Of a stretch of DNA of 64,000 nt, positions 39,774 to 51,002 are shown piece after piece. Both the position numbers and the translations under genes were made by a program. Location of the stretch: the NCBI RefSeq assembly GCF_900106035.1, contig NZ_FNUC01000004.1:1922001-1986000 (forward strand). The letters are read 5' to 3'. The notes beneath the pieces were generated by a model, which had not been told where the DNA came from, made no database searches, and saw only the letters and a list, made by a program, of their open reading frames with translations. Origin of the DNA: Jiangella alba. Its GTDB lineage: Bacteria > Actinomycetota > Actinomycetes > Jiangellales > Jiangellaceae. Each line of letters begins with the position of its first letter. Within the stretch, counting starts at the first letter, position 1.

Positions 39774-39782
39774 TTTGACAAA
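39774..39782. promoter_or_regulatory. Operator-like TTTGACAAA between ROK and GH63-like genes
   Basis: TTTG-A-CAAA is symmetric about one base and contains a TTGACA -35. It lies in the short gap upstream of both divergent starts, where the ROK protein would act. Confidence 0.4.
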
Positions 39783-39843
39783 ACTAGGACGATATCGAAA
39801 CCTGGTCGGGACGACTACCCGTCGGAGGGCGAAGGAGACGCGC

Positions 39844-41163
39844 GTGCGGGTCCCGGTCAGCGACGTGGGGCTCGGCGACCGCGCGGCCGACGTCCTGCGC
39901 GGCAACGACCTCGGCTCCATGACGGCGGCGGCGCCGCGGCTCTACCCGCACATGTGGAGCTGGGACTCCGGGCTGATCGCGGTCGGGCTGGCCCGGCTGT
40001 CGGTGCCGCGCGCCATCACCGAGCTGCGCACGCTGCTGCGGGCCCAGTGGGCGACCGGGATGATCCCGCACATCGTGTTCTCCGAGGGCGACGGCTACTT
40101 CCCGGGCCCGCAGCGGTGGGCGACGGAGTCCGCGGCGGCCGCGCCGGCCGCCGTCCGCACGTCCGGCATCTGCCAGCCACCCGTGCACGCCCTCGCGGTC
40201 CGCCGCATCCTCGACGCCGGTCGTGCGGCCGGCGGGGCCGACCGCGCGGAGGCCGAGGCGTTCGTCCGCGACACCTTCGGCGCCTGGCTGGCCTGGCACC
40301 GCTGGCTGGCCACCGCGCGCGACCCGGACGGCCGCGGGCTGGTCGAGATCCACCACGGCTGGGAGAGCGGCATGGACAACTCGCCGCGCTGGGACCAGCC
40401 CTACGCCGCGGTCGTCCCGGGCGACGACCTGCCCGGGTTCGTCCGCACCGACGTCGACCACGTCGGCGACCTGCGCGAGCGGCCCACCGACGCCGAGTAC
40501 GGCCGGTACCTGTGGATCGTCGAGCAGCTGCGCCGGGTCCGCTACGACGACGACGCGGCCCGCGAGGTCGTCGGGTTCCGGGTGGCCGACGTGTTCATGT
40601 CCGCCATCCTCGCCGTCGCCAGCGACGAGCTGGCCGGCATCGGCGACGAGCTGGGCTTCGACGACGACGCGGCCGAGCTGCGCGAGCTGGCCGCCCGGTT
40701 CCGCGCCGGTGTCCGGTCGACGGTGTCGCCGTCGACGGGGCTGGCCCGCGACCTCGACCGCCGGTCCGGACGCTGGATCGCGACGGAGACGGTGGCCGGC
40801 TTCGCGCCGCTGTTCTGCGGCGTCGACGACGGGTCGCAGCGGGCGCTGTTCTGGGGCGAGCGCTGGTGCGGCCACCCCGCGCTGGCGCATCCGCTGCCGC
40901 CGTCGGTCTCACCGGCCGACCCCGGCCTGCGGCCGCGCACGTACTGGCGCGGCCCCGTCTGGCCGATCGTGTCGTGGCTGTTCAGCTGGGCGTTCGAGCG
41001 TCAGGGCGACGACGACGGCGCCCGGCGGCTGCGCGCGGCGTCGCTGCGGCAGCTGGCCGGCGGCGACTTCGGCGAGTACTACGAGCCGTTCACCGGCGAG
41101 CCGCTGGGCAGCCTGCACCAGTCCTGGACGGCGGCCGTCGCCCTGGACTGGCTGGCGCGCTGA
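39844..41163 (+). CDS. GH63-type glycoside hydrolase, glucosylglycerate hydrolase-like
   Basis: 439 residues, (alpha/alpha)6 barrel. APRLYPHMWSWDSGLIAVGLA is the family N-terminal block, HHGWESGMDNSPRWD holds the acid Asp, and GEYYEPFTGEPLGSLHQSW the base Glu. It resembles mycobacterial glucosylglycerate hydrolase, which releases glucose from a compatible solute used under nitrogen limitation. GTG 39844, with AAGGAG ahead, is preferred over an upstream ATG inside the promoter. It is divergent from a ROK repressor. Confidence 0.82.
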   Translation: MRVPVSDVGLGDRAADVLRGNDLGSMTAAAPRLYPHMWSWDSGLIAVGLARLSVPRAITELRTLLRAQWATGMIPHIVFSEGDGYFPGPQRWATESAAAAPAAVRTSGICQPPVHALAVRRILDAGRAAGGADRAEAEAFVRDTFGAWLAWHRWLATARDPDGRGLVEIHHGWESGMDNSPRWDQPYAAVVPGDDLPGFVRTDVDHVGDLRERPTDAEYGRYLWIVEQLRRVRYDDDAAREVVGFRVADVFMSAILAVASDELAGIGDELGFDDDAAELRELAARFRAGVRSTVSPSTGLARDLDRRSGRWIATETVAGFAPLFCGVDDGSQRALFWGERWCGHPALAHPLPPSVSPADPGLRPRTYWRGPVWPIVSWLFSWAFERQGDDDGARRLRAASLRQLAGGDFGEYYEPFTGEPLGSLHQSWTAAVALDWLAR

Positions 41164-41164
41164 C

Positions 41165-44100
41165 TCAGTCCGGCGGCAGCGCCGCCGCCCGGATGATCTC
41201 CTGGTCGATCCGGTTGCCCGCGGCGTCGGCCGCGCCGAAGCGCAGCGAGACGAACCCCGTGTGGCCGCGCGGCGGACGGTTCGGCAGGTGCGCCGAGAAC
41301 GTGTCGCCGGAGCGGCGCACCCGCAGCGGCCGCCAGCCGGCGCCGTCGTCGTAGGAGGCCTCGACGGTGAGGGCGGTGACCCGCGGGTCCGCACCGGCCA
41401 GGTGGCCGACCTCGACGGAGATCTCGTTCGGCCCGCGCCGGTCCCGCGGCGCCGGGAGCCGGTTGGTGAGGTCGGCGTCGAGGTCGTGCTCGAGGGTGAG
41501 CAGCGGCACCACGGTGGGTTCGCCGCCGGCCGGTGTCGTGTCGGAGTCGAACGTCCACGAGGTGCGGGTGCGGGTCGAGAGCTCGGCCCACGTCGTCCGG
41601 TTCTCCAGTGAGTAGTCGATGCGGTACGTCTCCTCGCCGGGCGGCAGATCGATGGTGCCGGCCGGCGCCACGATGCCGGTCGCCTCGCCGATCAGCTCGT
41701 CGCCGTGCCAGACCTGGAACAGCTGGCGGTAGCCGGCGCCGTCCGTGCCGCCCGCCCACGCTTCGCCGAAGTTGCCGGCGGCGTCGACGAAGCCCGCGAT
41801 GGGGATGATCAGCTGGTCGCCGCGGCGGGTCATCGGCCGCTGGTCGTCGAACCCGGGGACGAGCGGCTGCCGCAGCCACGAGTGCTCACCGTCGGCCACC
41901 GGCCCGATCGGGCCCTGAAGCCTGAGCTCGGTGACGGCCGGGCGGGGCCACAGCCCGTTGTACGGCTCCTGCGGGGTCTGCACGACGTGCTGCCAGAGCA
42001 TGCTCGGGTCGTCGACGTAGTAGGCGGTGCGGCTCATCGGCGCCTCCGGCACCGGCATCGGCAGTGACGCGGAGAACTCGTGCTCGGCGGCGAAGGGGTA
42101 GGCCACCTCGGTCAGCGACCCGCTCAGCTGGACGCCGAGGTCGTGCCGGACGGCGGCGAGGTCCGCGGCGCGGTCGACGTAGCTCAGCTCCGCCGGGATC
42201 CGGCCGCGTTCGAGGTGCACGAGGTCGTAGACGTACGGGCTGGACGGCGTCCCCGTCGCGCTCGCGGTGACGACGCCGTCGCCCAGCCGGTCCAGCAGGG
42301 CCCGGCCCTCCTCGTGCGACAGCCGCACGGTGGGCACGTCGAGCCGGTGCACGTCCGGGCCGACCTGGTCGTTCGACCCGGGCACGTCGTTGTAGACGGC
42401 GACCAACGCGGCGCCGGCCGCGGCGGCCCGGTTCGCCTGCACGGCGACCGGGACCGCGTCGGAGCGGCGCACCAGCGCCAGCGCGCCGTCCAGGTCCGCG
42501 GCGGCGACGTCCGCGGCGGTGCCGTCACCGGCGTCGACGACGGGCAGCGTCAGCTCGCCGTCGAGCCTGGGGAACTGCGAGAGGACGTCGCTGAACTCCA
42601 ACGGCGAGTAGTACGACGGCGCCAGGTCGACGCCGTCGACGTCGAGGGTGATGTCCGGAGCGGCCAGCCGGAACCGCGACGACGCGTTGAACGAGCCGAT
42701 CGTCACCTCGTCCGTGGGCTGCAGGAACACCCGCTCCTCCAGCTGCGCGCCGGGCGGGTTGACCACGAAGTCCACGGTCGCGGGGCCGTTCTCGGGGGTC
42801 CGCGCCCAGCCGAACCCGACCGAGCCGCCGACGTTCGCCCGGGTCTCGTGGTCCGGCGTCGCGATCTCGACCTCGACGGCGTCGCGGGCGTCCAGGACCA
42901 GCGCGGTGTCGCCGGTGATCGTCACCTCGGGGTCGCCGACCAGCGAGGAGTAGAGCGGCGTCGCCGAGTGGGGGTCGCCGTCGCTGTCGGCCCAGGCCGG
43001 CTTGGTCACGAGCCACGTCATGACGGAGTACGTCCCGGCCGGCACCCGAGCGCACCAGGTCATCAGGTCCGACACGTCCTCGCACGTCCCGCGCAGGACC
43101 GGCTCGCCGGTGCGCACGTCGACGACGGGGGAGGCGACGTAGCCGGTGAGCTGCGGCTCGGCCGGCCGTCCGTCCGCGGCGATCGCCGTCATGGTGAGGT
43201 CGAAGTACTCCGCCTCGACGGTGTACCCGAGCGGCAGTCGCAGCGGGTCCGCCGCGTCGGCGGGCGTCGCCAGCAGGTAGCCGGCGTAGTCGCCCGCCGG
43301 CCCACCCGCCGCGTCGAGCACCACCTCGGCGCTGCCGGTGGCGCCGGGTGCGAGCGTCAGGGTGGACGGCGTCACCGTCAGGTCCCCGGCGGCGGCGCCG
43401 GGCACGTCCACGGCGAGGTCGACGGTGACCGGCGCGGCGGTCGTGTTGCGGTACTCGACGGTGCGCCGCAGCGGCTGCGCGGGGACGTCGCCGGGGAACG
43501 GCAGCAGGCCGAAGCTCAGGTCGCCGCCGGACGCCAGCACCGGGGCGGCCAGCAGCCGGCCGACGTCGATCCGTCCGCTGCCCTGCGCGGTGACCTCGAC
43601 GCCGTCGGTGGGCACGGCGGTCGAGGTCAGCGCGGCCCGCAGCTCCGGCCCGGTGAGGTCGGGCCGGGCCTGCGCCAGCAGCGCGGCGGCGCCCGCGACG
43701 TGCGGCGTGGCCATGGACGTGCCGGAGTAGGCGACGTACGGGTCGCCGCCGCCGGCCCGTGCGGCGGAGATCTCCACGCCCGGCGCCGTGACCTCGGGCT
43801 TGAGCTGGTAGCCGCCGTACGACGGGCCGCGGCTGGAGAAGTCGGCCAGCTGGTCGTCGCGGTCGACGGCGCCGACGGTGAGCGCCGAGGGGGCCTCGCC
43901 CGGGCTGCCGACGCACGCGTCGCAGTGGTTGTTGCCCGAGGCGACCACGAACAGCGTGCCGTGCTCGGCGCTGAGCCGCTCGACCGCGCCGGTCAGCAGC
44001 GGCGCCTCGAAGTCGCCCGGGCCCAGGCCGAGGCTCATGTTGACGATCTGGGCGCCCTGGGCCGCTGCCCACTCCATGCCGGCGATCGCCCAGGACACCT

Positions 44101-45028
44101 GGCCCTGGGCCTGGCGGTTCAGCACCTTGCCGCTGATCAGCCGGGCGCCCGGCGCGACGCCGCGGCGGGCCCCGTCCGACGCCGCACCCGTGCCGACGAG
44201 GATCGAGGCGACGTGCGTGCCGTGCCCGGCGCCGTCGCCCGCGTCCGGCTCGTCGGTGAAGTTCACCGCCGTGCCGACCTGTCCGGCGAGGTCGGGGTGC
44301 GTGTCGTCGATGCCGGAGTCGAGCACGGCGACCGTGACGCCGTCGCCGTCGACGCCCGCGTCCCAGGCGGCCGGCGCGGAGATCTGGCCGGTACTGCGGT
44401 CCAGCCGGGCCTCCGTCCGGGCGTCCAGCCAGACCTTCTCCACCGCGCCCAGCGGGTCGCCGCCGGCCAGCGGCCGCGGCCCGGCCAGGGCCAGCACCGC
44501 CGCGCCGAACTCGTCCGGGTCGGCGTCCACCGCGACGGCGTTGACGCTGGTCAGCTGCAGCGTGGCGGTGGTGCCGGGCACGGGCGAGGCGTCCAGGGGC
44601 CGCACGGCGTCGTCGGCGTAGTCGAGGATCAGCGGCAGCGTCGCACCGGCGTCCTGCGCGGCCAGCGCCGTCACGTCGAACAGGGCGGCGTCGAGGCGGT
44701 CCGGCACCAGCGCGGCGACGTCGGAGGGCACCACCCGCGTGATGCCGTCGCGGGAGCTGGCGTGGAACTGCGGGACGACGCCGCCGGGCCGCGGCGCGGG
44801 GTCGACGGAGATGCCCTCGTACCCGTCGGCGCCGCGTTGGAGGTGCACGCGGTCGCCGGTGACGAGGGTGACGGTCGTGGTCTGCGGCTCGACGCCGAAC
44901 GCCGTCACCGCGTCGTCCGTCGAGGCCTCCTCGCCGGCCTGCCCCGGCGCCGCGCCGAGGGTGGCGAGCAGCGACCCGCCGACGAGGATCGCGAGGAGAC
45001 GCCTGGACCTGTCCGACCGACCGCTCAT
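41165..45028 (-). CDS. Large secreted subtilisin-like serine protease (S8)
   Basis: 1,287 residues. A signal peptide (LLAILVGGSLLATLGAAPGQA) and propeptide lead to the S8 domain: Asp in AVLDSGIDDTHPDLAG (about 237), His in GHGTHVASILVG (about 272), Ser in YSGTSMATPHVAGAAALLAQ (about 436). The 800-residue C-terminal part has beta-sandwich domains and a PA-like insert (about 850-920). It is exported and degrades protein. ATG 45028 has AAGGAG 9 nt upstream and beats GTG 45046. Gene-free DNA of 300 bp separates it from the divergent caspase-helicase gene. Confidence 0.93.
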   Translation of the reverse strand: MSGRSDRSRRLLAILVGGSLLATLGAAPGQAGEEASTDDAVTAFGVEPQTTTVTLVTGDRVHLQRGADGYEGISVDPAPRPGGVVPQFHASSRDGITRVVPSDVAALVPDRLDAALFDVTALAAQDAGATLPLILDYADDAVRPLDASPVPGTTATLQLTSVNAVAVDADPDEFGAAVLALAGPRPLAGGDPLGAVEKVWLDARTEARLDRSTGQISAPAAWDAGVDGDGVTVAVLDSGIDDTHPDLAGQVGTAVNFTDEPDAGDGAGHGTHVASILVGTGAASDGARRGVAPGARLISGKVLNRQAQGQVSWAIAGMEWAAAQGAQIVNMSLGLGPGDFEAPLLTGAVERLSAEHGTLFVVASGNNHCDACVGSPGEAPSALTVGAVDRDDQLADFSSRGPSYGGYQLKPEVTAPGVEISAARAGGGDPYVAYSGTSMATPHVAGAAALLAQARPDLTGPELRAALTSTAVPTDGVEVTAQGSGRIDVGRLLAAPVLASGGDLSFGLLPFPGDVPAQPLRRTVEYRNTTAAPVTVDLAVDVPGAAAGDLTVTPSTLTLAPGATGSAEVVLDAAGGPAGDYAGYLLATPADAADPLRLPLGYTVEAEYFDLTMTAIAADGRPAEPQLTGYVASPVVDVRTGEPVLRGTCEDVSDLMTWCARVPAGTYSVMTWLVTKPAWADSDGDPHSATPLYSSLVGDPEVTITGDTALVLDARDAVEVEIATPDHETRANVGGSVGFGWARTPENGPATVDFVVNPPGAQLEERVFLQPTDEVTIGSFNASSRFRLAAPDITLDVDGVDLAPSYYSPLEFSDVLSQFPRLDGELTLPVVDAGDGTAADVAAADLDGALALVRRSDAVPVAVQANRAAAAGAALVAVYNDVPGSNDQVGPDVHRLDVPTVRLSHEEGRALLDRLGDGVVTASATGTPSSPYVYDLVHLERGRIPAELSYVDRAADLAAVRHDLGVQLSGSLTEVAYPFAAEHEFSASLPMPVPEAPMSRTAYYVDDPSMLWQHVVQTPQEPYNGLWPRPAVTELRLQGPIGPVADGEHSWLRQPLVPGFDDQRPMTRRGDQLIIPIAGFVDAAGNFGEAWAGGTDGAGYRQLFQVWHGDELIGEATGIVAPAGTIDLPPGEETYRIDYSLENRTTWAELSTRTRTSWTFDSDTTPAGGEPTVVPLLTLEHDLDADLTNRLPAPRDRRGPNEISVEVGHLAGADPRVTALTVEASYDDGAGWRPLRVRRSGDTFSAHLPNRPPRGHTGFVSLRFGAADAAGNRIDQEIIRAAALPPD

Positions 45029-45046
45029 CACCGCGGGCTCCTTCAC

Positions 45047-45350: not shown

Positions 45351-48300
45351 ATGAACGAGCCGTCGATGCATGCGCGGATCGAACCCGTCCGGGATCGGTT
45401 CGTGGCCGTCCGTCCGGCCACGGTCACGCTTCCGGCACCGCCGCGGCGTACGCCCGAGGCGTCGCTGCGATTCCCGTCCGCCGTGGAATCCGCCGCGGTT
45501 CCGGCCGTCCCGGACGCCCGCCGGCTGCCTGCCGGCGATCGCGCCGCGCTGCTCGTCGGCACGGCCGTCCACGACCACGCCGGGTACCCGCTGCTGCCTG
45601 TCGCCGCGGCCGGGCTGCGCCAGCTGCGCCAGGTCCTGGAGCGCGCCGACGTCGGCATGGTCGACACCTGCCAGGTGGTCGCCGACGGCAGCCGCGGCGA
45701 GATCATGCGGGCGGTCGAGACGTTCCTCGACGAGCGGGCGCTGGCCGACACCGTGCTGGTGTACCTCACCGGCTACGCGCAGGTGTCCGGTGCCGACGGA
45801 CGGCTCTACCTCGCCGCCGCCGACACCGACCCCGCCGACCTCGAGCGCACCGCCGTCCCGGCCGACTTCCTCCGCGACCAGCTGCAGGAGTGCCGGGCGG
45901 CCAGCAAGGTCGTGCTGCTCGACGCCTGCCTGCCCGGCGCGGAGACCGACCGGTTCGCCGTCCAGCGCAGCCAGGTCATGCTCGAGCCGGCCGGCGTCTA
46001 CGTCATCTCGGCGTCGCCGGCCCCGCAGCCGGCGTCCGTCATGGCCGAGCCGGTGCCGCAACTGGGCACGTCGCGGTTCACCGGCGAGATCGTCGAGGGG
46101 CTGCGCACCGGCCGGGTCAAGGACGGCCTCGGGCCGTGGGTCACCGCCGAGGACCTCGCCCGGTACCTCACCACCAAGCTGGTCGCGCAGGGCGTGCCGG
46201 CCGAGCAGCTGCCGGCCACCTCGACGCTCGCCGTCACCGGCAACCACGTCATCGCGCGGTCGGCCGTGCGCGCGCTCAGCCTGCTCGACGGCAACGGCGG
46301 GCGCGACGTCCGCGGCACCTCCGCCGGAGCGGGCGGCGCCGTCGCCGTCCCCGCCGACGGGACCGCCGGCGCGTCCGGTGGCGCGGGAGCGGCCGGCGGC
46401 GACCACGGCGACCAGGTCGCCGACCCGGGCTGGCGCGAGGTCATCGCCTACTACCGCTCCTGCCTGGCCGAGGCGCCGTCGCCCGAGGCGCTGCCGGTGC
46501 GCGGCGCCGAGTCCGCCGACTGGTTCCCGATGGCCGACGGCGCCGAGGCGCTGCTCAGCGGCGCCGAGCCGACGACGCTCGCCCCGGCCGGCGTCGACAC
46601 CTTCGACTGGAAGGAACGCGACGTCTGGTACGGGTATCCGCTGGTCACGCTGGCCGGCGCCGGGCGCCGCCACTCGGGCGACCCGCTGGCCCCGTCCACC
46701 GTCGCCCCGCTGCTGGTCCGCCGCGCCGAGGTCACCGTCGACGCCCGCGGCGCCGCCGCCCTGCGCCCGGTCGGGCCGGTGCTGCCGCACGCCGGCATCC
46801 TGCAGGCCTGCCTCGACGACCAGGAGGCGGCCAGCGTGCTGGCGGCCTGGCGGCAGAGCTGGAAGCCGGGCGACCGCGACCAGCTGCTGGTGGCGATCCG
46901 GCAGCTGCTGAAGCGACTCGGCCTGGACGAGCTGAGCCGTCTCGACCCCGCCGCGCTGGGCGCCGTCGACCAGAAGACCGCCAACCGCACCGGCGTCCAC
47001 AACACCGCCGGCGTGCTGTACGTCGAGTCCGAGCGGGCCGCCCAGCAGGCCGTCGCCGCCGAGCTGGCCGAGCTGGGGGAGCGGCTGGCCGACGTGCCCG
47101 GCACCGCGCTGGAGTTCCTGGGCAAGCCGGTCGGGCTGCGCACCACCACCCGCGCCGCCGTCGCGCCGGTGCTGCCGGCCGAGCTGAACGAGAGCCAGCA
47201 GACGGTGCTGACGGCGGCCATGTCGCGGCCGCTCACCGTCGTCACCGCGCCGCCCGGCACCGGCAAGGACGAGCTGCTCGTCGACGTCGTCGCCACTGCG
47301 GTCGCCGCCGGGCAGAAGGTGCTGGTCGCGTCCGCCGACGACGCCGCGCTGCAACGGCTGGCCGACCGGTGCGGCTCGCTCGTCACCGGCCTGCTGATCA
47401 AGACCGGCGACGCACAGGCCCGGGCCGAGGAGAAGCAGGTCGTCCGCGAACTGCTCCGCTCCACCAAGGACGCGTCGGGCGGACGCAGCCGCGGCTCCGT
47501 CGCCGCCGAGCTGGCCGCCGCGCAGCTGCAGGTCAAGGCATGGCGCAACCGCCTGGCCGAGCGGAACGACCTCGAGACGCTGCTGCGCAAGACCACAGCC
47601 GCGCGGTCCGCCGCGGCCGAGCGGCTGGGCGTGCCGCCCGAGCTGCTGGCCGCCGCGTGGCGCGGCGACGACGCCGGGCTGTCCGACTGGGTCGACCGCG
47701 CGCGCACGCTCACCGAGACGCACCTCATGGGCGGGCTGCGCCGTCGCAACCTGGTGCTCGCGTTCGTCCGCGCCATGGCCGACGCCGGTGCCGACTCCGG
47801 CGCTGCACGCGAGCTGCTGCTCGACCCCGCAGCGTTCGACTCGCTCATGCTGTTCGCGCGGGCCGAGGACCGGTTGCGCGAAGACCGGCGCGAGGCGCTC
47901 GCCGTCAGCGACGACGCGCTCGACCTCGAGGGCCGCGAGCTGTCGGCGCGGGTCGCCGAGCTCTCCGCCGAACTGCTCGCCGTCGTCGTGGCGGAGCAGG
48001 CCGGCACCGCCCGCGAGCGGCTGGAGGCGCGCCGCATCGCGCTGGAGCCGGGCGGCCGGAACCGGCAGAGCAGCCACCGCGAGCTGCTCAGCCACCTCGG
48101 TGGCTGGGCGGTCACGCCGCGCGACGCCGGCCAGTTGGCGCTGGAGCCGGGCATGTTCGACCTCGTCGTCATCGACGACGCGCACCACTGCCCGGTGTCC
48201 GCCGCGCTGCCGCTGCTGTTCCGCGCCCGCCGTGCCCTCGTCGTCGGCGACCCGCGGCAGCGGCTGCGCACGCCCGGCCTCAGCGACCACCGGCTGCGCC

Positions 48301-49349
48301 GCGCCCGCCGCGCCGCCGGCCTGAGCGCCGGCTTCCTGTCCGAGCGGCGGCTGTCCTTCCGCGGCGACTCCGTCTTCGACGCCGCGCTGCCCAACGTCGA
48401 GGAGTCGCTGCTGCTCGACGAGCACGACGGCGCGCACCCGGGCATCGCCCGCATCGTCGACGAGCACTTCTACGGGGGCCGGCTGACCGTTGTCACCGAC
48501 GTCGGCGCGCTGCCCCGCGCGCACGACGCCGAGACCGGCGACGCGACGCTGCTGCTGTGGGAGGACGTCACCGGCACGCCCGAACGCGGCGCCAACGGCG
48601 GGTCGTGGCGCAACCAGGCCGAGATCGACCGCGTCGTGTGGGCGGTCAAGGAACTGCGCGAGCAGCTGCCCGCCGACGCCACCGTCGCCGTCGCCACCCC
48701 GTTCCGGGCCCAGGCCGAGGAGTTGCGGTCGCTGTTCCGGTTCGAGCCGGTGCCGGTGGCCTGCGTGGCCGACGGCGACGCGGTCGACTGCGACGCCGTC
48801 GTGCTGTCGCTGGTCGCCGGCGACGGCATGCCGGAGCAGACGCTGCGCTGGGCGCAGGGGCAGACGGCGCTGTGGAGCGGCGCGCTGGCCCGGGCGCGGG
48901 CGCACGTCGTCACCGTCGGGCAGCACGGGTTCTGGTCGCGGCAGGCCGGGCTGCCGGCGCTGCTGGCCCGCATGTCGTCCGTCCGCTCGTTCCACGTCCG
49001 GCCCAACCCGCCGGCGCCGATGGAGTCGGCCGTCTTCACCGACCCGCTGGTCGAGGCGCTGTGCACGCGGCTCGAGGCGGCCGGCGCCGGCGACGTCGAG
49101 CCGAACGCCGTCGTCGACGGCTACCGGGTCGACGTGCTGGTGCGCACGCCGTCCGGTAGCACCGCCGTCCTGCTGGACCGCGGCTGGCCGGGCGAGGACG
49201 CCGCGCGCCACCTGCGGCTGCTGCTGCGCCGGCGGCGGCTGCTGACCGGGCTGGTGCCGGAGTCGGGGCTGCCGCCGGTGACGCGGGTCCTGCGGGTGCC
49301 GACGTGGCAGGTGCGCTCCGGCGAGCCGATCGACGGTCTTCTCGACTGA
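45351..49349 (+). CDS. Caspase-like / SF1 helicase-like / restriction-endonuclease-like fusion with degenerate active sites
   Basis: 1,332 residues. Residues 63-215 look like a peptidase C14 (caspase) fold: AALLVGTAVHDHAGYPLLPV, TVLVYLTGYAQV where the catalytic His should be (Tyr142), and VVLLDACLPG with Cys193. A Gly/Ala linker (318-358) leads to a UPF1-like SF1 helicase core: LNESQQ, Walker A APPGTGKDE (Lys639 kept, Asp640 for Ser/Thr), Walker B FDLVVIDDAHHC (Asp943 for Glu), VVGDPRQ, LDEHDGAHP (1023-1030) where relatives have an HYRSH-type motif, ATPFRAQAEEL and LARARA. The end (1230-1332) resembles MTES_1575-type nuclease domains, with VDVLV and a LLDRG in place of the acidic pair. It may be a regulatory or sensor pseudoenzyme. 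ATG 45351 has GGGAG close upstream. Confidence 0.75.
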   Translation: MNEPSMHARIEPVRDRFVAVRPATVTLPAPPRRTPEASLRFPSAVESAAVPAVPDARRLPAGDRAALLVGTAVHDHAGYPLLPVAAAGLRQLRQVLERADVGMVDTCQVVADGSRGEIMRAVETFLDERALADTVLVYLTGYAQVSGADGRLYLAAADTDPADLERTAVPADFLRDQLQECRAASKVVLLDACLPGAETDRFAVQRSQVMLEPAGVYVISASPAPQPASVMAEPVPQLGTSRFTGEIVEGLRTGRVKDGLGPWVTAEDLARYLTTKLVAQGVPAEQLPATSTLAVTGNHVIARSAVRALSLLDGNGGRDVRGTSAGAGGAVAVPADGTAGASGGAGAAGGDHGDQVADPGWREVIAYYRSCLAEAPSPEALPVRGAESADWFPMADGAEALLSGAEPTTLAPAGVDTFDWKERDVWYGYPLVTLAGAGRRHSGDPLAPSTVAPLLVRRAEVTVDARGAAALRPVGPVLPHAGILQACLDDQEAASVLAAWRQSWKPGDRDQLLVAIRQLLKRLGLDELSRLDPAALGAVDQKTANRTGVHNTAGVLYVESERAAQQAVAAELAELGERLADVPGTALEFLGKPVGLRTTTRAAVAPVLPAELNESQQTVLTAAMSRPLTVVTAPPGTGKDELLVDVVATAVAAGQKVLVASADDAALQRLADRCGSLVTGLLIKTGDAQARAEEKQVVRELLRSTKDASGGRSRGSVAAELAAAQLQVKAWRNRLAERNDLETLLRKTTAARSAAAERLGVPPELLAAAWRGDDAGLSDWVDRARTLTETHLMGGLRRRNLVLAFVRAMADAGADSGAARELLLDPAAFDSLMLFARAEDRLREDRREALAVSDDALDLEGRELSARVAELSAELLAVVVAEQAGTARERLEARRIALEPGGRNRQSSHRELLSHLGGWAVTPRDAGQLALEPGMFDLVVIDDAHHCPVSAALPLLFRARRALVVGDPRQRLRTPGLSDHRLRRARRAAGLSAGFLSERRLSFRGDSVFDAALPNVEESLLLDEHDGAHPGIARIVDEHFYGGRLTVVTDVGALPRAHDAETGDATLLLWEDVTGTPERGANGGSWRNQAEIDRVVWAVKELREQLPADATVAVATPFRAQAEELRSLFRFEPVPVACVADGDAVDCDAVVLSLVAGDGMPEQTLRWAQGQTALWSGALARARAHVVTVGQHGFWSRQAGLPALLARMSSVRSFHVRPNPPAPMESAVFTDPLVEALCTRLEAAGAGDVEPNAVVDGYRVDVLVRTPSGSTAVLLDRGWPGEDAARHLRLLLRRRRLLTGLVPESGLPPVTRVLRVPTWQVRSGEPIDGLLD

Positions 49350-49433: not shown

Positions 49434-50285
49434 ATGCGCCTGCTCCGCACCGCCGTCCCCGCGGTTCTGGCAGTCTTGGGACTGATGGCCGGGACCACTC
49501 AGCCCGCTTCGTCGGCCGATCCGTCGCCCCGCGACCGGCCGCTCACCGTCATGAGCTTCAACATCCACCACGGCGTCGGCGTCGACGGCCTGCTGAACCT
49601 GCAGCGAGTCGCCGACGTCATCAAGACCGAGGGCGTCGACGTCGTCGGCCTGCAGGAGGTCGACCGCCACTGGGGCGAGCGCAGCGACTTCGTCGACCAG
49701 GCCGCCTGGCTCGCCGACGAGCTGGACATGCACGTCGTGTACGGCGCCAACCTCGACCTCGACCCGGCGCAGCCGGGCGAGCCGCGCCGTCAGTACGGCA
49801 CCGCGATCCTCAGCGAGCGGCCGATCCGCGACTGGGACAACACCTACCTGCCCCGCTACGAGGGGCACGAGCAGCGTGGCCTGCTGCGCGCCCGCATCAA
49901 CGTGCGCGGCGTCTGGGTGAGCGTCTACAACACCCACCTGCAGCACAACGACGCCAACGAGCGGCTTGAACAGGTCGCGGCGATCGAGGCGCTGATGGGC
50001 GAGCCGGACGAGTCGGTCGTGCTGCTCGGCGACCTCAACGCCGTCCCGTCGTCGCCGGAGATCCGCGAGCTCGTCGACGACCTCGTCGACACCTGGGAGG
50101 CCGCCGGCGTCGGCGACGGCAACACCTATCCGGCGGAGGACCCGAACGCCCGCATCGACTACGTCCTCACCTCCGGCGACGTCATCGTCCGCACCGCCGC
50201 CGTGGTCTCGACCGACGCGTCGGACCACCTGCCGGCCAAGGCGGAGGTGCTGTTGCCCGGTTCCCACGTTGGCCTGGGCCGTTAA
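49434..50285 (+). CDS. Secreted endonuclease/exonuclease/phosphatase (EEP) family protein
   Basis: 283 residues. Signal peptide (AVLAVLGLMAGTTQPASSA), then the EEP set: VMSFNIHHGVG (Asn), VVGLQEVDRHWG (metal Glu), VYNTHLQHN (His), VVLLGDLNAVPSS (Asp/Asn), IDYVLTSGDV and SDHLPAKAEV (catalytic Asp-His). It is exported, so it likely acts on extracellular phosphodiesters or phospholipid head groups. ATG 49434 follows AAAGGA. It lies 84 bp after the caspase-helicase gene but has its own spacer. Confidence 0.9.
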   Translation: MRLLRTAVPAVLAVLGLMAGTTQPASSADPSPRDRPLTVMSFNIHHGVGVDGLLNLQRVADVIKTEGVDVVGLQEVDRHWGERSDFVDQAAWLADELDMHVVYGANLDLDPAQPGEPRRQYGTAILSERPIRDWDNTYLPRYEGHEQRGLLRARINVRGVWVSVYNTHLQHNDANERLEQVAAIEALMGEPDESVVLLGDLNAVPSSPEIRELVDDLVDTWEAAGVGDGNTYPAEDPNARIDYVLTSGDVIVRTAAVVSTDASDHLPAKAEVLLPGSHVGLGR

Positions 50286-50344: not shown

Positions 50345-50429
50345 TCGGGCAAACGCGTGAGGGTGCCGATCCGCGTATCGTGACGGTATGAATCGAAGGT
50401 CAGATCATGATCGAGCGAAGGAGGTTCCG

Positions 50430-51002
50430 ATGACGACGGTCACGGTGCCCAACGAGCTCCTGGCCATCGAGGATTGGGATGCACTCGAGGAGACCGACGC
50501 CAACCGGTACTGGGAGCTCGTCGACGGGACGATCATCATGAACTCGTTCCCGACGGCCGGCCATCAGTTCGTTGCGCACCGACTGGTCAACCTGTTGGAC
50601 GCGCAGTTGCCCGAGGGCCTGGTCGCGCTTCAGCACCTCGGTCTGACCATCGAGGCGCGGTTCCCACCGACAGTGCGCGGCCCGGACGTCGTGGTGTTCT
50701 CCCGGGCGCAGGTGAAACTGGATGTCGCCAGGATCGACCCCGCCGACGTGCAGTTGGTCGTCGAGGTCGTCTCGCCAGGGTCGAGGCGCACCGACCGCAT
50801 AGCGAAGGTCGCCGACTATCAGTACGCTGGCATTCCGGCGTACTGGATCATCGACCCGGCGGCGGCTGAGGGCGATGCGTTCGTCGCGTACGAGCTGGCC
50901 GGCGGCGCCTACAAGGAGGTCGCGCGCGGCTCAGGTGTCATCACCCTCGAGCGGCCGTTCCCGGTCACCATCGACGTCGGCGCGCTGCTGACGCTCGACT
51001 GA
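50430..51002 (+). CDS. Uma2-family PD-(D/E)xK nuclease-like protein
   Basis: 190 residues. [26 protein letters not shown] with the first acid, [36 protein letters not shown] with the Glu and Lys. Uma2/DUF820 proteins share a restriction-endonuclease fold and are often amplified in genomes; the role is unknown. ATG 50430 has AAGGAGG. A -10 TATCGT (50376-50381) would start the mRNA at about 50388, where another ATG in frame occurs. Confidence 0.88.

Follow-up and report, generated by a model that had tools for sequence, protein, structure and literature searches.

Both animals and cyanobacteria are known to have caspase pseudoenzymes. Among bacterial conflict systems, the closest described system to the gene treated here is the EACC1-caspase two-gene system, which is System 4 of Kaur et al. 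2020 (PMC7159879). The section of that paper on the system names no fused helicase, and another passage describes the effector domains of related conflict systems as often inactive. For bacterial pseudo-orthocaspases, the passages drawn on from Klemencic et al. 2019 (PMC6426788) give YS as the commonest variant, with YN also found in bacteria, and report 3 pseudo-variants among 636 actinobacterial sequences. The window examined here is a stretch of 64,000 nucleotides from Jiangella alba (contig NZ_FNUC01000004.1, positions 1,922,001 to 1,986,000). It contains an uninterrupted open reading frame for a protein of 1332 amino acids, with a single match in its own 7.68-Mb genome, in which a caspase-like domain is joined to a UPF1-type superfamily 1 (SF1) helicase and a nuclease-like end. 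The alignments indicate, with high confidence, that catalytic residues of this caspase-helicase protein have been lost across the whole lineage, in a gene that is itself conserved.

The window protein resembles the EACC1-caspase system in having an N-terminal caspase of the EACC1-associated type followed by a variable C-terminal module, here the helicase and the nuclease-like end. Eight colinear relatives from other families of the class (G058, G259, G057a, G324a, G321, G331, G371a and G336) keep the caspase and SF1 motifs, and each of the eight has an EACC1-like small gene directly upstream, as in that system. These relatives are called motif-intact below, which is a statement about sequence only; the three that were aligned pairwise with the window protein show 30-33% identity. 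Unlike the EACC1-caspase system, the Jiangella locus has no 5' gene for an EACC1-like transmembrane component, and its protein, present in every Jiangella genome examined, lacks the caspase His and the helicase motifs. Because the upstream EACC1 gene and the His-Cys dyad are defining features of that system, the window protein is not assigned to it. An earlier note, made from the window sequence alone, had known of no described defence system with this exact arrangement. Searches of open-licence literature turned up no account of the window protein, nor of any dead fusion between a caspase and a UPF1 helicase, but the ancestor would be of a known kind, that of the EACC1-caspase two-gene systems.

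The domain folds are supported by profile searches and by two AlphaFold2 models built from alignments of the window protein and its relatives. The model of the N-terminal half covers residues 50-606, draws on 22 sequences and has a mean predicted local distance difference test score (pLDDT) of 77.5 and a predicted template modelling score (pTM) of 0.49. That of the C-terminal half covers residues 600-1332, draws on 31 sequences and has a pLDDT of 87.8 and a pTM of 0.87. The caspase part of the model matches MALT1 (best Foldseek E-value 9.8e-10; VIA, Z 22.6, root-mean-square deviation (rmsd) 2.3, 200 aligned). NCBIfam NF047832, "caspase, EACC1-associated type", matches the window caspase at 140.2 bits against a cut-off of 140 and scores above the cut-off in 10 of the 12 Jiangella genomes. 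The Pfam C14 model recognises the domain in just one of 13 orthologues. Pfam AAA_11 and AAA_12 are found in all 13 orthologues, and the helicase model has the two-RecA-like-domain fold of a UPF1-type SF1 helicase. Its Foldseek matches are SETX, UPF1 and IGHMBP2 at E-values of 3e-19 to 2e-16, the best being SETX (2.8e-19), and NSP13 is matched as well. Structural comparison gives NSP13 9i51 (Z 26.6, rmsd 3.5, 333 aligned) and IGHMBP2 4b3g (Z 25.4, rmsd 3.4, 392 aligned).

The catalytic columns are read from an alignment of the window protein and 35 further sequences, with 13 Jiangellaceae rows for the caspase and 14 for the helicase. Residue 142 is Tyr in all 13 Jiangellaceae rows and His in none; it is His in 8/8 motif-intact relatives. 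Residue 193 is Cys in 12 of the 13 rows, Gly in the remaining one (G002), and Cys in 8/8 motif-intact relatives. As in the pseudo-orthocaspases of PMC6426788, at least in the passages drawn on, a p20 fold is present, the His-Cys dyad is not intact (His 0/13, Cys 12/13) and Tyr stands in for His, so the domain belongs with the pseudo-orthocaspases. Unlike the YS and YN variants named there, the Jiangellaceae domain has Tyr with the Cys mostly kept and is fused to a dead helicase.

Loss in the helicase extends over several motifs. The names Walker A, Walker B, Ia, III, V and VI are attached here to the columns that we take to represent these motifs in the window protein. At the Walker A position 640, Ser or Thr is present in 0/14 Jiangellaceae, and Ser is present in 8/8 motif-intact relatives. 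The adjacent Lys639 is kept in 12/14 Jiangellaceae (Ala in G015 and G011) and in 8/8 motif-intact relatives. Asp942 of Walker B is kept in 13/14 and 8/8, respectively. Position 943 is Asp in 13/14 Jiangellaceae and Glu only in G001, a genome of the sister genus; it is Glu in all motif-intact relatives. Position 1027 is Gly in every Jiangellaceae row and the Arg of H(Y/F)RCHP in every motif-intact relative. The motif V Gln and Glu are each absent from all 14 Jiangellaceae rows and each present in all eight motif-intact relatives. Motif III Gln970 (10/14 versus 8/8) and motif VI Arg1181 (12/14 and 8/8) are better preserved. Within motif Ia, Asn663 is replaced by Asp in 14/14 Jiangellaceae and Asn664 by Asp in 12/14. 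Lys639 and Cys193 continue to disappear in single lineages.

The helicase domain has also changed in charge. Its mean net charge is -14.3 in the 14 Jiangellaceae proteins (-19 to -8) versus +4.6 in the eight motif-intact relatives (0 to 12). The shift sits mostly in the second RecA-like domain (RecA2), at -10.7 versus +0.2. Charge is nearly equal in the two groups for the caspase, middle and C-terminal domains.

The earlier note had named Tyr142, Cys193, Lys639-Asp640, Asp942-Asp943 and the stretch LDEHDGAHP (1022-1030), and all of them sit at the positions that it gave. The columns that it took to be catalytic are the right ones; they read H142, C193, K639, S640, E943 and R1027 in 8/8 motif-intact relatives. 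Both the caspase and the helicase domain that it had proposed are found by profile and fold searches. Its description of a protein that has kept its architecture and lost catalytic residues in several domains applies to the whole lineage.

The protein shares its core fold with SF1 helicases of the UPF1/IGHMBP2 type, among them the ones in the anti-phage proteins MkoA, Hhe, ProA and PLuB. PADLOC profiles match for MkoA (2.8e-24) and Hhe (6.7e-8), and the NCBIfam matches for ProA (1.1e-8) and PLuB (3.1e-9) are both far below cut-off. The MkoA (Mokosh) match falls in two stretches, the better of which aligns profile positions 791-1039 of 1112 with residues 935-1155. The best stretches of all four matches are confined to the helicase part of the window protein. 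Unlike functional UPF1-type helicases, the protein lacks the Walker A Ser/Thr, Arg1027 and, save in one species, the Walker B Glu.

The C-terminal end is homologous in fold to the MTES_1575/DUF559 restriction-like nucleases. The Pfam MTES_1575 match is below cut-off (E-value 0.047, in one of 13 orthologues). An hhalign comparison of the end-domain alignment with four outgroup helicase ends has a probability of 94.7% and an E-value of 6.2e-8; three of these outgroup ends are over the Pfam MTES_1575 cut-off and one, L063, is under it (29.1 of 38.2 bits). The modelled order of elements (helix, three strands, helix, strand) is that of a restriction-like nuclease. Both Asp columns, including the Asp of GYxxD, are invariant in the 31 rows. 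Unlike in the MTES_1575/DUF559 nucleases, the catalytic Glu of the E-C-D stretch is present in 0/31 rows, being replaced by Leu (25), Val (2), Ile (2), Phe (1) or His (1). The 31 rows include all eight motif-intact relatives, so the loss of the nuclease site predates the Jiangella event. A nuclease-like end without the usual catalytic residues, as the earlier note had it, is therefore present as far as the Glu is concerned, but its loss is older than the other changes in Jiangella. The four outgroup proteins (L054, L057, L059 and L063) are SF1 helicases without a recognised caspase and represent a broader family to which the helicase part of the window protein is related.

Orthologues are present in 14 of the 22 genomes searched, a set that is identical for family and order. 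These are all 12 Jiangella genomes (in one, the gene is split over two contigs) and both genomes of the sister genus g2. The other eight genomes contain short helicase matches only (two genomes) or nothing (six genomes). A protein scan returned nine named loci, seven of them in Jiangella, with a closest identity of 95%. The reading frame is intact in all 13 full-length rows, with identity to the window protein ranging from 97% down to 60%. A single decayed copy is ruled out by the presence of the gene in 14 genomes and by these open frames. The earlier note had likewise taken the protein for more than this, and orthologues keep the caspase His in 0/13, the Walker A Ser/Thr in 0/14 and the Walker B Glu in 1/14.

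The gene is under purifying selection. Nei-Gojobori ratios of nonsynonymous to synonymous substitution rates (dN/dS) for 11 pairs, which are rough values, are 0.16-0.45 for the whole gene and 0.07-0.42 for the caspase domain. Among distant pairs, the ratio rises to 1.0 in the linker and 0.67 in the N-terminal tail. The neighbouring genes, in the pairs computed, give 0.05-0.35 (endonuclease/exonuclease/phosphatase, EEP), 0.12-0.19 (dehydrogenase), 0.07-0.23 (antiporter), 0.24-0.57 (Uma2) and 0.38-0.45 (S8 protease). In matched pairs, the gene mostly falls between the slower neighbours (EEP, dehydrogenase and antiporter) and the faster ones (Uma2 and S8). The best-conserved stretches of divergent orthologues include residues 416-430, 462-476, 685-699, 1093-1107, 1119-1133 and 1310-1324, which would be the places to look for partner surfaces.

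Identity to the window protein tracks the identity of the EEP gene (Spearman 0.93, 13 genomes, rounded identities), as is expected under vertical descent. The EEP gene lies directly downstream on the same strand, 44-185 bp away, in 10/10 loci of a first set and 9/9 named loci, which together account for all 14 Jiangellaceae genomes. A mobile, horizontally moving defence gene in Jiangella is unsupported, given the constant neighbour and the tracking of EEP identity. Sixteen plasmid records match the protein, none over more than 80% of the query; 15 match the caspase part only and one the helicase part only. The EEP protein has, by eye, a signal-peptide-like start.

The small upstream gene of the motif-intact relatives is absent from the degenerate loci. 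We take this gene for EACC1 because of where it lies, the type of the caspase beside it and a hydrophobic segment containing small residues in its product. A hidden Markov model (HMM) was trained on the small protein from seven motif-intact relatives, and it also recovers that of the eighth, G336, which was outside the training set (E-value 4.6e-14). It matches nothing in the 24 degenerate loci (10 from Jiangellaceae including the window, 14 from f17, a second family described below), of which G013 has no upstream DNA and G311 only 577 bases. There is likewise no match in the nine named-record loci or upstream of the N-terminal piece of G013 (L017), and the best match in the window has an E-value of 0.44. 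The first set, the nine named loci and L017 cover all 14 Jiangellaceae genomes, with five genomes in both locus sets. The EACC1-like proteins themselves have no match in Pfam (six proteins), NCBIfam (four proteins) or plasmids (one protein). With the NF047832 profile, the window-protein orthologue is the sole match in each of the 12 Jiangella genomes; of 14 control genomes, one is matched, below cut-off.

A second degenerate clade is present in f17, which was sampled by a profile search of 100 genomes together with the members already found there. Its 14 degenerate proteins retain the Walker A Lys in 0/14, the Walker B Glu in 3/14 and Arg1027 in 8/14. Their caspase columns are empty in nine and lack both His and Cys in the remaining five. 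The helicase is not acidified (mean +7.2). In 13 of the 14 loci (L124, L128 and L130-L141), a gene for an Fpg/Nei glycosylase (Pfam) follows downstream on the same strand; the distance is at most 362 bp in eight loci and reaches up to 5.8 kb in the rest. Across the nine f17 genera that hold a degenerate copy, it is present in 14 of 15 genomes searched, and three further g39 genomes also have one (in G421, only the Walker B region is read). Motif-intact copies are sporadic, in one of three g39 genomes and one of two in each of g216, g203 and g228; in addition, G311 (the second g203 genome) has an unread fragment of another copy and G421 (g39) a broken one. Three genomes, G057, G324 and G371, hold one motif-intact and one degenerate copy each. 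The broken copy in G421 (C11:108908-111287, partly in L183) has the motif-intact stretches DEASQC, LDEHYRCHP and QGGERD in separate frames. It is probably a decayed copy of the active type beside the degenerate one.

A maximum-likelihood tree of 41 rows was built with the motif columns removed, and the degenerate group was defined from the motif table before the tree. The Jiangellaceae branch beside G058, G259, G331 and G336 (support 86/79). The f17 degenerate clade branches beside G057a, G324a, G321 and G371a (support 99/97). In approximately unbiased (AU) tests, one clade of all degenerate rows has p=0.024 and one clade of all motif-intact rows has p=0.027. This pattern is favourable to two independent losses of the motifs but not decisive, as the long stems (0.9 and 0.61) limit the test. 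A common origin of both degenerate clades, suggested by a shared LDEHD pattern, is disfavoured by the tree and by the AU result for the degenerate rows.

The reading that we prefer, with a probability of roughly 0.6, is that the gene encodes a domesticated pseudoenzyme that now acts as a multidomain scaffold without proteolysis or ATP-driven movement. The gene would descend from the gene for the caspase in a two-gene EACC1-caspase conflict system, active and accompanied by an EACC1-like partner, in which the caspase was fused to a UPF1-type SF1 helicase. The catalytic Glu would already have been missing from the nuclease end of this ancestral fusion. The common ancestor of Jiangella and the sister genus would have lost the EACC1-like membrane partner, and the gene would have become fixed beside the EEP gene. 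The caspase His, the ATPase motifs and the RNA/DNA-contact motifs would have been lost, and the helicase part would have turned acidic. The present protein would show no activity in vitro. Its pseudo-caspase and rigid two-RecA platform would bind partners, presumably proteins, and this binding would be its output. With an acidified helicase in which motif Ia, Arg1027 and motif V have been lost, a protein scaffold is favoured over ordinary binding of nucleic acids. The sensor or scaffold role suggested in the earlier note may apply. Several points weigh against the scaffold reading. Cys193 (12/13), Lys639 (12/14), Asp942 (13/14), Gln970 (10/14) and Arg1181 (12/14) are mostly kept, so ATP binding or odd cysteine chemistry is possible in most species. 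The sister-genus genome G001 retains the Walker B Glu. In most matched pairs, three of the neighbouring genes evolve somewhat more slowly than this one, and dS is probably underestimated in GC-rich genes, which makes the dN/dS values rough. The EEP neighbour, with its signal-peptide-like start, may be unrelated to the caspase-helicase protein.

The protein could alternatively be a nucleic-acid receptor, in which the dead helicase has kept its ability to bind RNA or DNA and an effector is recruited by the pseudo-caspase. Such receptors, made from inactive STAND NTPases that retain nucleic-acid binding, are proposed in a passage of PMC8195603, and both the helicase fold and Arg1181 (12/14) are kept here. 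This is nevertheless unlikely for Jiangellaceae, where the helicase domain is acidified in 14/14, the two motif Ia Asn residues have become Asp (14/14 and 12/14), and Arg1027 and the motif V Gln and Glu are lost in every row. It fits the non-acidified f17 clade better. A class with non-standard chemistry, which the earlier note had also raised, would keep a working Tyr142/Cys193 pair or a nucleotide site that has shifted. All 14 rows lack Arg1027 and motif V, and the replacement of Cys193 by Gly in G002 and of Lys639 by Ala in G015 and G011 weakens the idea further. It is improbable, even with a Tyr142 that is invariant in 13/13 rather than drifting and a Cys193 kept in 12/13.

No second NF047832 caspase is found in any of the 12 Jiangella genomes, which makes a brake on an active paralogue unlikely. 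As a decoy or dominant-negative brake on an active EACC1-caspase-helicase, the protein would be comparable to cFLIP, which is mentioned in PMC6426788, and caspase-8. Inactive effector copies as decoys are proposed in a passage of PMC7159879, and G057, G324 and G371 of f17 do hold a motif-intact and a degenerate copy together. However, in 11 of the 14 f17 genomes where the degenerate form occurs, no complete motif-intact counterpart was seen, though G311 does hold the unread fragment of another copy. The braking role is highly improbable. Slow decay of a useless, still readable gene is scarcely credible. It would account for the further losses of single catalytic residues in some members of the clade (two for Lys639, one for Cys193), but not for a frame that is intact in 13/13 full-length rows down to 60% identity, for a fixed neighbour, or for dN/dS ratios that stay far under 1 everywhere but in the linker and, when distant pairs are compared, in the N-terminal tail.

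The domesticated scaffold in Jiangella and the f17 clade may be two instances of one process. Tentatively, within a single bacterial class, a whole caspase-helicase immune enzyme may have turned into a fixed, partner-less, dead core protein on at least two independent occasions. The Jiangella form would be an acidic pseudo-helicase, perhaps a protein hub or a nucleic-acid mimic, and the f17 form would be basic and perhaps tied to the base-excision-repair gene fpg/nei. If this is true, non-enzymatic regulatory scaffolds arise repeatedly from bacterial immune genes. Here, a multi-enzyme protein is seen losing several active sites and a likely membrane partner while becoming fixed. Motif-intact relatives are available for comparison, as is a parallel case in another family. 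The question of what a dead immune enzyme does becomes testable by simple gene removal.

The order of domains from the N-terminus is a variable tail, the caspase, a linker, the middle domain, the helicase and the end domain (Table 1). The middle domain is also found in relatives that lack the caspase. Fold matches listed for the N-terminal-half model are all caspases and are uninformative on the middle-domain fold.

Table 1. Features of the caspase-helicase gene and its downstream neighbour, in window positions.
Feature	Position	Strand	Basis
Whole gene: pseudo-caspase, middle domain, pseudo-SF1 helicase and nuclease-like end, 1332 aa	45351..49349	+	
Caspase p20-type domain, residues 65-279, EACC1-associated type	45543..46187	+	NF047832 and MALT1-like model
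Tyr142 at the catalytic His position	45774..45776	+	alignment columns
Cys193, catalytic Cys position	45927..45929	+	alignment columns
Gly/Ala-rich linker, about residues 306-358, mostly low model confidence, fast evolving	46266..46424	+	model and dN/dS
Middle domain, residues 359-606	46425..47168	+	
UPF1/IGHMBP2-type SF1 helicase core, residues 611-1195	47181..48935	+	Pfam AAA_11/AAA_12, model, fold matches
Walker A Lys639-Asp640	47265..47270	+	alignment columns
Helical insertion in the first RecA-like domain, about residues 700-905	47448..48065	+	helices in model
Walker B Asp942-Asp943	48174..48179	+	alignment columns
Gly1027 replacing the Arg of LDEH(Y/F)RCHP	48429..48431	+	alignment columns
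MTES_1575-like nuclease fold, residues 1215-1332, Leu at the catalytic Glu position	48993..49346	+	model, alignment, hhalign
EEP gene, 84 bp past the caspase-helicase gene	49434..50285	+	Pfam PF03372

Other genes flank this pair in the window. A gene for a Uma2 family putative restriction endonuclease lies at 50388-51002 on the + strand, and a relative of it follows the EEP gene in several Jiangellaceae loci. On the other side, a large S8 subtilase with a PA domain (41165-45046, - strand) is divergent from the caspase-helicase gene. The loci of G010, G001 and G002 (L145, L147 and L148) have an M23 peptidase cluster gene upstream instead of the S8 subtilase. Further upstream in the window, the gene at 39775-41163 (+ strand) encodes an MGH1-like glycoside hydrolase (PF22422, E-value 7e-104).

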